33,173 bases of DNA from Verrucomicrobiales bacterium (GTDB lineage: Bacteria; Verrucomicrobiota; Verrucomicrobiia; Limisphaerales; UBA9464): positions 1 through 33,173 of the forward strand of contig SYMJ01000235.1 in NCBI GenBank assembly GCA_005805505.1, written 5' to 3'. The notes below the pieces were generated by a model. That model searched no databases. It worked only from the letters and a program-made list of their open reading frames with translations, and was not told the DNA's origin. Made by a program: the position numbers and the translations under genes. Position 1 is the stretch's first letter. Each line of letters opens with the position of its first letter. Shown piece after piece: positions 19,700 to 29,213 of this stretch.

Positions 19700-20163
19700 T
19701 GAAAAAAACCCTGACTCACTCCCACTTCCAAGCCCAGCCAGAACCCACCTGCCCCATCCTCCGCACCCACCAGCAAAGCCCTCACAACCGACACCCATTG
19801 ATCCGCCGGATCGCCGCAATGAGACTGGGCCTGCTGAACACAAAGCGGCAGCGGGACCGGGCCGGAGCGAGCATTGGAACGTCGACACCCTGATCCCCAT
19901 CGCGCGGCCGCGCGAAAGCCGAGCCTGTCCCCACGTTCCCTGCGAGCGCAGGACCGTTCCCGCGGAGCCTACGCCCAGCAACGCACCAAAAAACCACCCC
20001 CCTTCGGAGCCAACTTCTCATTACTAGAAATAATTGAGAGTGGCCCCTTTTGTGTAAATAAGTGGGACCGACCCCGCATGCTACCACCGCAATTCGATCG
20101 CGCCCCCAGTTGACGGGACGCTTTCCTATTCCAAGATGAATCCATAGCCTGTCACTGATCATT
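19700..20163. other. Gene-free divergent spacer
   Basis: This 464-bp stretch lies between the divergent GDPD gene and the DUF1549/DUF1553 gene. It is C-rich from 19700 to 20010 and more AT-rich from 20020 to 20070 (ttactagaaataattgagag), which is the probable promoter area for the plus-strand trio. I found no tRNA, repeat or convincing promoter hexamers, and no protein-like frame. Confidence 0.4.
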
Positions 20164-27114: not shown

Positions 27115-27384
27115 TTACTTAGCTGCGACGTCGGCCTTCTTCCAAGTGCGACGCGGAGCCTTGGTCACCATGCCGGCCTTCAAAGCCTTCACGGAGACTC
27201 GCATGTAGCGAACCTCTCCACTGGGCAAGAGCGCCTTAACGCGCTGCAAGTTCGGGTAGAACTTGCGCTTAGTGATCGCGGTGACGTGGGTACCGATACC
27301 ACCTTTTTTCTTGGCCTTACCCGAGCGCCAGATGTGATTGCCTTTCACCGGGCGGCGACCCGTCAGCGGACAAATGCGTGCCAT
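27115..27384 (-). CDS. rpmB: 50S ribosomal protein L28
   Basis: Structural protein of the large ribosomal subunit, 89 residues. The N-terminus MARICPLTGRRPVKGNHIWRS is the conserved L28 pattern; KRKFYPNLQRVK and VRVSVKALKAG-like segments (RVSVKALKAGM) follow. Only one cysteine (Cys5) is present, so this is the non-zinc form. The gene is monocistronic, convergent with the dehydrogenase unit, and ends near a bidirectional terminator. The ATG at 27384 has no clear Shine-Dalgarno upstream. Confidence 0.97.
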   Translation of the reverse strand: MARICPLTGRRPVKGNHIWRSGKAKKKGGIGTHVTAITKRKFYPNLQRVKALLPSGEVRYMRVSVKALKAGMVTKAPRRTWKKADVAAK

Positions 27385-28166
27385 AATCGAAGGATTCTTA
27401 AATTAAAGGAGCAGATGACCTACCAGCCCGAGGAGCCTTGGTGCAAGCAGCATTTTCGGATACCTGAGCACTGACCCAATAATTTCAAGTCGTTTTGAAC
27501 CAATAAACCGGTGTCCTAAAGAGCCCTCAAGGGCCTCTGAGCCGGAGTAATTTCTGTTGGATCGATCCGACGGAGCAGTCTTGAACCGTAATGATTCATG
27601 GGGAGGAAATTAATGGCGTGGCTGATTCTCTGAAAGCGCCAACGTCTGCGGTGCCGGACCGCTCGGAGATCGGTCCCTACCTCGGAAGTCTTCGGGCTAC
27701 ATCCGGGGGGTTTACCATAAACCCAGCCTTGCCTGGGCACCTCCGAGGTAAGGCGATTTCTCTGAAAGCGCCACGTCCACAGACATGGACCACCGCAGAG
27801 CCGGACCGCCGCAGACACGGACCGCTCGGAGATCGGTCCCTACCTCGGAAGTCTTCGGGCTACATCCGGGGTGTTTACCATAAACTCAGCCTTGCCTGGG
27901 CACCTCCGAGGTAAGGCGATTTCTCTGAAAGCGCCACGTCCACAGACATGGACCACCGCAGAGCCGGACCGCCGCAGAGCCGGACCGCTCGGAGATCGGT
28001 CCCTACCTCGGAAGTCTTCGGACTACATCCACGGTCGTAACACAGGGTCGTACCACAGCCTTAGCCAGCACGACCGATCCCACTCAAAATCGTTTCGGCT
28101 TAAAATGGCCCGGGGGGGAGGCAACTTGAAAGCGACAGCAGCGAGCCCGAGGGTTATGGTATCACC
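27385..28166. other. Long gene-free spacer carrying a repeat array
   Basis: This 782-bp stretch lies between rpmB and the S41-like gene, which are divergent. Its middle is occupied by three copies of a 163-bp repeat (described separately). The first 120 bp should contain the rpmB promoter and the last 130 bp the promoter of the plus-strand gene; no clear hexamers were found. Open frames of about 100 codons here arise from the repeats and read across repeat copies, so they are not considered genes. Confidence 0.6.
27627..28030. repeat. Three-copy 163-bp intergenic direct repeat rich in hairpins
   Basis: Copy A spans 27627-27758 (lacks about 31 bp), copy B 27759-27921 (full, 163 bp), and copy C 27922-28030 (ends early). 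The core ggaccgctcggagatcggtcc starts at 27656, 27819 and 27982, exactly 163 bp apart each time. Copies differ at very few positions. Each unit holds several inverted repeats: ggaccg/cggtcc; tacctcgga/tccgaggta about 64 bp apart; gtcca/tggac; and, at the unit junction, ggcg-a-tttc-tct-gaaa-g-cgcc. Copy C contains an extra internal duplication of cgcagagccggaccgc. There is no transposase frame and no target-site duplication that I can see. Confidence 0.93.
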
Positions 28167-29213
28167 ATGCGTGAGACCCTGCGGTGGATTGAAGTCCTGG
28201 CGCTGTTTCTGGCGCTCTTTTTGTCACCAAGACTCCAGGGCGATACGCCGTCCTCGACGACGCGCCTGCCGGAGTTGATCCAAGTGCTTCGAACCCACCT
28301 CGACCTAGGCTCGGCGGAGTTCGAGGCCCAAGCCTCTCAGGCGTTGATCGAGCGATTCGGTGCACGACCGGTGCAAGGAATCTCGACCGCCGGATCCACA
28401 AACAGTCCAGCCCAGGATCTGATCGCCCGGCAGGAGCGACTCGACGGAGGCATTCTTTACCTCCGAATGAGCCGGGTAGACTTGGGATTGCCCGCGGCAC
28501 TCCGGGCTGCTTTGAATGACAAAACTTGGAACACCAACGCCTCCGGTCTGGTCCTGGACCTCCGGTTTGCTTCGGGCGACTCCCTTCCGGCTGCTGGCGA
28601 GACCGCCAGCCTCTTCTCGGACCGAACCGAGGCTCTCCTCCACTGGGGAAGCAATTCGATTCCCGGCTCGGGCGCCCAGCGCCTCTGGAGCCTCCCCATG
28701 GCCGTCTTGGTCAACCACCGGACCGAAGGGGCAGCCGAAGCGTTGGCAGCCGTATTGAGGCAAGAGACCGGAAGCCCTCTAATCGGACAGGCCACCGCCG
28801 GACGGCATGGAGTCTTCCGTGAAGTCGGCCTTGGAGACGGCACCCGCCTTCAGGTACCGGTAGGGCGCATCCGACTGGGCGATGGATCGCCCTTGGTTGC
28901 GGGGCCTATCCCGCCGGACATTCGGATCCTGATCCCGGAAAACACCGAACGTGGATTCGTCAAAAACCCCACCGCGGCCCTCAAACCCAACGGAACCAAC
29001 GGTATGAGTGGTTCCATGGGTTCCGCACCCCTTTCACGACGGAAAGTCACTGAAGCCGATCTGGTTCGCGCGCAACGGAGTGAAGCCAACGACTCAACAA
29101 CCGAGACCCACACAGTCGAAAAGGCCGCGGTGCCCATCCGGTTGGCGGATCCTGTCTTGGCCCGAGCGACGGACCTGGTCCGCGGGTTGACCGCCTTTCA
29201 GAAGGCTCGTTGA
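28167..29213 (+). CDS. S41-peptidase-like protein, probably catalytically inactive
   Basis: Predicted exported protein of 348 residues with an N-terminal hydrophobic signal (WIEVLALFLALFLSPRLQG). The region 90-260 resembles the core of S41 C-terminal processing peptidases: ILYLRMSRVD, SGLVLDLRFASGDS (the usual GLILDLR strand), PMAVLVNHRTEGAAEALAAVL and SPLIGQATAGRHGVF. In active enzymes the NxxTAS-A-xE motif has the nucleophile Ser and the later TxGKG has the general-base Lys, 25 residues apart. Here these places hold Gly188 and Arg213, with the spacing kept. No PDZ domain is obvious. The C-terminal 90 residues are low in hydrophobics and unlike the family. A pseudoprotease with a binding or scaffold role is inferred. 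The gene starts just downstream of the repeat array. Confidence 0.7.
   Translation: MRETLRWIEVLALFLALFLSPRLQGDTPSSTTRLPELIQVLRTHLDLGSAEFEAQASQALIERFGARPVQGISTAGSTNSPAQDLIARQERLDGGILYLRMSRVDLGLPAALRAALNDKTWNTNASGLVLDLRFASGDSLPAAGETASLFSDRTEALLHWGSNSIPGSGAQRLWSLPMAVLVNHRTEGAAEALAAVLRQETGSPLIGQATAGRHGVFREVGLGDGTRLQVPVGRIRLGDGSPLVAGPIPPDIRILIPENTERGFVKNPTAALKPNGTNGMSGSMGSAPLSRRKVTEADLVRAQRSEANDSTTETHTVEKAAVPIRLADPVLARATDLVRGLTAFQKAR

Follow-up and report, generated by a model that had tools for sequence, protein, structure and literature searches.

The window, i.e. the whole stretch of DNA of 33,173 nt that was analysed, contains a tandem array located between two open reading frames. On its left side lies an ORF of 89 aa (27115-27384, minus strand), which reads like ribosomal protein L28 and may encode it, and on its right side lies a Peptidase_S41 gene (28167-29213, plus strand), so that the array is located upstream of both. 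TRF placed a BIME-like array at 27655-28030 (2.3 copies, 97% matches) whose units recur exactly every 163 bp, as was also seen by repeat search and copy comparison. The period and the very few differences between the copies had been claimed in the original prediction and were both borne out: 4 of 163 bases are different between copy 1 (27655-27817) and copy 2 (27818-27980), and 1 of 50 bases in the partial third copy (27981-28030). To speak of three near-identical copies was slightly overstated, as two units are complete and the third is present only in part. Additionally, the right half of a B hairpin (described below) is present 5′ of these at the left edge of the array (27626-27640, plus strand; copy comparison and repeat search). 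A CRISPR array, for which the unit had been judged too long, was ruled out, given that the whole 163-bp unit is repeated with its spacer included instead of carrying unique spacers. The tRNA search of the window gave no match.

Within the period, a unit of 117 bp was delimited, in which hairpin A, CTAC, a spacer, a tag and hairpin B follow each other. On the minus strand hairpin A reads GTAG-GGACCGATC-TCC-GAGCGGTCC, and the common form of hairpin B reads GTAG-GGCGATTTC-TCC-GAAAGCGCC on the plus strand. The two hairpins are inverted with respect to each other, and each consists of a 9-bp stem with one A-G mismatch, a 3-base loop and a GTAG-type tag in front. Hairpin A is present in three exact copies at 27656-27680, 27819-27843 and 27982-28006 (all on the minus strand), each with the exact tag GTAG followed by GGACCGATCTCCGAGCGGTCC. 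Hairpin B is present at 27748-27772 and 27911-27935 (both on the plus strand; reading of the array and copy comparison) with the degenerate tag GTAA followed by GGCGATTTCTCTGAAAGCGCC and with the loop TCT. The tags of A and B point inward and are located within complementary ends of the spacer, which form a third, central stem. In unit 2, on which the folds were made and in which they include both A copy 2 and B copy 2, the left arm with the CTAC tag of A (27838-27852; inverted-repeat search and folds) pairs with the right arm with the tag of B (27902-27916; inverted-repeat search). The single-strand DNA fold of this unit had a z-score of -3.3 on either strand. Of the at least four inverted repeats per unit that had been predicted, two short hairpins and one long central stem were recovered; smaller helices within the unit appear in the predicted single-strand folds, and whether four are reached depends on how these are counted. 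A and B look like inverted relatives because the unit matches itself on the other strand: when the unit at 2314-2430 of locus L078 was compared with its own complement, 140 bits were obtained for the plus strand and 54 bits for the minus strand.

The unit proved to be dispersed when its own and related genomes were searched, as had been proposed together with the original prediction. In its own genome (G000; 3.62 Mb in 247 contigs, 79.6% complete) one unit gave at least 83 matches on 37 contigs, with 40 of 64 first-look candidates scored, and the tagged hairpin A was found with up to three mismatches at 58 places, compared to none for the reversed pattern; by these counts chance is excluded. 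Among 41 arrays of G000 that were read, some hold full units or tandem runs, and others have only one of the two hairpins, either A or B. Most of these arrays (35 of 41) are located outside open frames of at least 250 aa, and the remaining 6 inside a long open frame. A covariance model was built from 19 of 23 units, the four units with longer spacers (L043, L079 and two of L080) being excluded from the alignment. Of the 19 genus genomes, 11 contained the full A-B unit according to this model, and seven of these had at least 33 copies. Under strict filters it was detected in none of 40 genomes of other genera, where, as in the genus, 62 candidates were scored per genome and the zeros may hide weak copies. 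Thus, the repeat is peculiar to the lineage, as had been suggested, with regard to the full unit, whereas the hairpin design is met with elsewhere in the phylum. The exact hairpin was found in at least 112 stretches of named genomes, and the 80 matches listed are mostly from MAGs labelled Verrucomicrobia. It was also seen in MAGs labelled Neomarinimicrobiota, Akkermansia muciniphila and Opitutaceae (L197, L198 and L243), which are probably cases of mislabelling or misbinning. No exact match was obtained in the viral contig collection.

The anatomy of the unit was compared with known repeats. In excerpts of Di Nocera 2013 (PMC3733652), GTAG REPs are described as short palindromes with an unpaired GTAG at one end (GTRG or GTGG in some families), dimers with inward tags are termed TT type and have spacers with complementary ends, and O. 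terrae (Verrucomicrobia) is reported as highly enriched in GTAG repeats. The repeats of the window agree with this description in several respects. The palindrome is short and present in many copies, which by the open-frame proxy are mostly intergenic; it carries an unpaired GTAG or GTRG at its 5′ foot; and in the terms of these excerpts the A-B unit is a TT dimer whose spacer has complementary ends. As compared to the text of these excerpts, the family is distinguished by a full A-B unit seen only in one genus and by the apex ATCTCCGAG. For the tags of A, own-genome copies were selected by the 21-base palindrome only (up to five changes), since part of the earlier loci had been fetched by a pattern including the tag. 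CTAC followed 49 of 70 A hairpins selected in this way, a count in which some bias remains because the loci were fetched with the whole unit. Conservation per base in own-genome copies was 0.79-0.91 for the A tag and 0.86-0.99 for stem and loop; the bases after the tag had 0.93, then 0.73 and 0.44, and later spacer bases reached up to 0.87. The tags of B were GTAG in 18, GTGG in 14 and GTAA in 6 of 51 cases, i.e. GTAG or GTGG in 32 of 51. Assignment to the CGTC REPs was rejected: the 5′ foot of the palindrome bears GTAG-type tags, and an ACGTC tract is located only 3′ of B.

The combination of a REP and an inverted REP with a linker in tandem copies corresponds to a BIME. Excerpts on the BIME and REPtron of E. 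coli (Corneloup 2021, PMC8266576) describe imperfect palindromes with an irregular stem and a GTAG tag, arranged as REP and iREP with linker and in tandem. The A/B family shares these features and resembles the REPtron described there in that a RAYT gene adjoins REPs. It differs from the E. coli BIME of that source in stem sequence and host phylum and from the REPtron in that the RAYT was not found in the window's own assembly.

The RAYT gene in question is located on contig C68 of G010, a genome of the same genus, in which the window locus is present with 91% identity and three exact A hairpins. This gene encodes a protein of 166 aa (L358, 1459-1956) and is bracketed by the exact tagged hairpin of the window, GTAGGGACCGATCTCCGAGCGGTCC, at 1292 and 1956; its TAG stop codon falls in the GTAG tag of the latter, and further copies of A and B are present around it. 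The absence of a transposase noted in the original prediction is therefore true locally, but not for the genus. The protein matched the NCBIfam model NF047646 with 85.8 bits (cut-off 80) and E. coli TnpA-REP (PDB 4er8) with an E-value of 6.7e-6 over the HUH and Tyr regions, in which the catalytic residues are presumably located; no Pfam match was obtained at 0.001. In excerpts of Nunvar 2010 (PMC2817692), RAYT units are described that have REPs on either side of the gene, with a REP located at its stop codon, and the REPs are dimorphic. The RAYT of G010 is like these units with its own REP on both sides and at the stop codon and with dimorphic REPs. It is unlike the inverted REPs described there in that the two A copies closest to it point the same way and the inverted B copies are located further out. 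By analogy to TnpA-REP, an enzyme of this type would be the one that moves the A/B repeats.

The gene was found by a search of the genus with a profile of the RAYTs of L346 and L348 (see below) and one RAYT of G000. This search gave 60 matches, of which 30 loci were scanned (reversed control: none), and A/B hairpins were present only at L358; the six strong matches (E-value 1e-23 or better) were all read with the same result. Accordingly, in the 30 of 60 matches scanned no cognate RAYT was found in G000 or in 17 other genomes of the genus. It may have been lost from the window's own genome or may have failed to assemble, which cannot be told apart because the assemblies are incomplete and some contigs end in arrays. 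When the L358 protein was compared by tblastn with the collected loci, 22 loci were matched, and A/B hairpins were seen only in L358, L346 and L348. The latter two are from distant genomes. In G098 (contig C59, L346) a small RAYT ORF (1390-1872) is flanked by a hairpin with another stem, and in G308 (contig C69, L348), in one of 8 fetched repeat loci, a small RAYT ORF (458-961) is flanked by hairpins with other stems, an A-like GTAGGGCTCGATCTCCGAGCGAGCC and a B-like GTAGGGCGACTTCTCCGAAGGCGCC being present on each side. Both encoded proteins matched NF047646 (85.2 and 82.0 bits, respectively, cut-off 80). Among distant RAYT loci, of which 30 of 46 matches were scanned in 12 genomes chosen as carrying the hairpin, two-sided hairpins of the same loop type were found at L346 only, and L341 and L347 had one unconvincing hairpin match each.

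With Pfam PF01797 (Y1_Tnp), 10-12 matches were obtained in G000, and 18 of the 19 genus genomes were hit, but no PF01797 RAYT was located beside A/B hairpins in the loci L051-L074 and L103-L170 (L063 is a repeat locus). Before L358 was found, six RAYT seeds compared with the ORFs of 200 partly overlapping A/B loci also gave no RAYT. A RAYT subfamily that would track the abundance of the repeat was considered and rejected, since the same subfamily is present (75 and 77% identical) in G016 and G018, respectively, which are free of the repeat. Other RAYTs of the genus bear different GTAG hairpins (L356/L357/L359, L361, L362 and L363), which fits one REP per RAYT. One such GTAG REP, GTAGGCCGCGTGCCCTCACGCGGC, is located around a RAYT in L356 (G000, contig C74; positions 128, 222 and 922) and also in L357 and L359; together with the RAYT in G000, G004 and G002 it is a separate REPtron of the genus. 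Further GTAG hairpin families, e.g. GTAGGCCGGGTCCCCTGACCCGGC and GTAGGGATGGTGTCTCACCGTCC, were seen in L037, L040, L076, L359 and L361. A larger RAYT-like subfamily (L072, L073 and genus relatives) shares an upstream GTGACAGGTTCATTGTTGTTGAC-like motif, and many fragments of it are located at contig ends.

Several other repeats were met in the genus. A dispersed repeat of about 270 bp (L066 5684-5958; L038, L037, L063 and L039) is 84-87% identical between loci and located near a REP array in L038, L037 and L063. A very abundant and partly palindromic dispersed repeat (L039 and L050; query 802-877) had dozens of listed matches in five genus genomes. Moreover, positions 19845-20076 of the window match L066 3199-3418 with 72% identity, and this region of L066 also matches L003, L050 and L039 and thus represents another dispersed repeat.

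The hairpin was furthermore followed across the phylum, which is Verrucomicrobia by the labels of the named matches. With up to two mismatches the tagged hairpin was found in 24 of 387 phylum genomes, G000 included (reversed control: none). Among the 46 matches listed outside G000 (23 genomes), exactly one compensated stem pair accounts for the difference in 28, and 2 have an altered tag. The A of the A-G mismatch is replaced in 16 of them, in 15 cases by C pairing with G, so that the mismatch is common and not a rule. A relaxed pattern, GTAGG-N5-ATCTCCGAG-N5-C, has five free pairs and keeps tag, apex and outer pair constant; it thus tests the stem only, conservation of tag and apex being fixed by design. 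It matched in 33 of 387 genomes, and the reversed control hit 2. In the 80 matches listed outside G000 (32 genomes, at most ten per genome) all five free pairs are Watson-Crick pairs in 58 cases, four in 7 and three or fewer in 15. These matches comprise 30 distinct arm pairs, 13 of which are fully paired, and the mean number of free pairs formed was 3.67, compared to a mean of 2.10 and a maximum of 2.77 in 2000 shuffles. Hence, the stem is conserved as a stem while its sequence varies, and across the phylum the palindrome is kept by compensatory change, as in GTAG REPs. Within the genus compensatory changes are few and covariation is weak.

A structured RNA was among the original suggestions; it would be a regulatory or small RNA whose fold is under selection and whose spread is incidental. 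It has points in its favour: the RNA fold of 27627-28030 had a z-score of -3.9, the central stem alternates between U-G (10 of 19 units) and U-A (9 of 19), and 35 of 41 arrays are located outside long open frames. Transcripts of the array would fold, but no specific support for such a function was obtained, and Rfam gave no match in the window at the gathering score. In the genus, the degree of conservation of loop and mismatch is similar to that of the stem (copies selected with up to 5 changes in 21), several arrays contain A alone or B alone, the hairpins flank RAYT genes, and relatives differ in their presence at the same sites. Taken together, an RNA function as the reason for the repeat is very unlikely.

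These differences between relatives were read at three loci. At the window locus the intergenic region is short and devoid of the array in G006, G015, G002, G018 and G011. The stretch missing from the orthologous region of G006, by gain or loss, corresponds to approximately 27564-28103 with the edges set by eye (right edge by blastn: 28115). At L044 the array is present in G000, G010 and G017, while G004 has 8 bp compared to 219 bp in G000 between flanks that are about 96% identical, and G014 and G006 are also without the array. At L016 G004 and G006 have 5 bp compared to 321 bp in G000, while in G010 a shorter version is present that contains B but not A. The stretch missing at each polymorphic site exceeds the length of the unit. 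Sites with and without the array are thus present among relatives, which may reflect either gain or loss of it. Intergenic DNA that occurs without the unit in relatives would also be expected for a MITE-like element that has terminal inverted repeats and depends on a conventional DDE transposase for its movement, and the unit is dyad symmetric over roughly 30 bp per end, as judged by eye. However, no target duplication was seen by eye at L044 and L016, as expected for a Y1 enzyme, and in the listed clusters no gene family recurs beside the arrays apart from generic families and reading frames that belong to the repeat. As single hairpins occur alone and the hairpin brackets a RAYT, which belongs to another enzyme class, an element of the MITE kind is highly improbable.

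The length of the array varies separately. In G004 the window locus is 294 bp shorter and carries a single A hairpin where three are present in the window. The distance from the half-B at 27626 to the second B at 27921 is 295 bp, so recombination between B copies would explain the version in G004, and the tandem length would then change separately from dispersal. The recent expansion or gene conversion that had been suggested is plausible for this reason. Simple local tandem duplication with neither function nor mobility, to which the near identity of the 163-bp copies and the differing array length between species might point, would account for the last step only and is hardly credible as the whole explanation, which is refuted by matches spread over 37 contigs of G000 and by the unit in 11 of 19 genus genomes. 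A unit confined to this locus and lacking conserved folding, which was to speak against the original prediction, was found on neither count, since the own genome holds at least 83 matches and the stem covaries.

The array is very probably a BIME of GTAG-type REPs that was mobilised by a RAYT recognising the hairpin and amplified in tandem in a second step. It would be a tandem run in which each unit carries the inverted and related hairpins A and B with a structured spacer. The RAYT (a Y1 HUH single-strand transposase, TnpA-REP) would bind the folded single-stranded hairpin via tag and apex and, by analogy to the TnpA-REP described in excerpts of PMC8266576, would cut and join it, seeding copies in intergenic DNA. 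Tandem amplification is probably a later step by recombination or slippage of adjacent copies. The family is dispersed through the genome and was most likely spread by a small hairpin-recognising transposase, the RAYT found in a related species; the REP-like element and the non-autonomous mobile repeat named as alternatives in the original prediction are both supported and are the same thing here. Against this reading stand the degenerate tag of B, the lower conservation of the A tag compared to its hairpin, spacer bases that reach 0.87, the A-G mismatch that is not universal, the weak covariation within the genus, the 6 of 41 arrays inside a long open frame and the cognate RAYT that was not found, in the loci scanned, in G000 or 17 other genus genomes; moreover, the presence of other RAYTs is unrelated to the abundance of the repeat. 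Rather tentatively, an old RAYT-REP lineage of the phylum may be considered, whose enzyme would depend for recognition mostly on the GTAG tag and on the apex, TC-TCC-GA, below which an A-G mismatch is frequent, so that the stems would drift freely by compensatory change. In repeat-rich species without the gene, the repeats would persist or be moved by the enzyme of another RAYT.

The element is of an ordinary kind, and the family is new as far as the searches reach; in a literature search by subject no paper on the A/B repeat family was found. It adds a REP family from uncultured bacteria and, with it, the gene by which the family is probably mobilised. The arrays may help to explain why contigs of these assemblies end in them. 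With a similar tag and apex and variable stems in several lineages, the family represents a natural stem-mutation experiment, and the enzyme-hairpin pairs of G010, G098 and G308 make it testable which parts of its hairpin a RAYT recognises.
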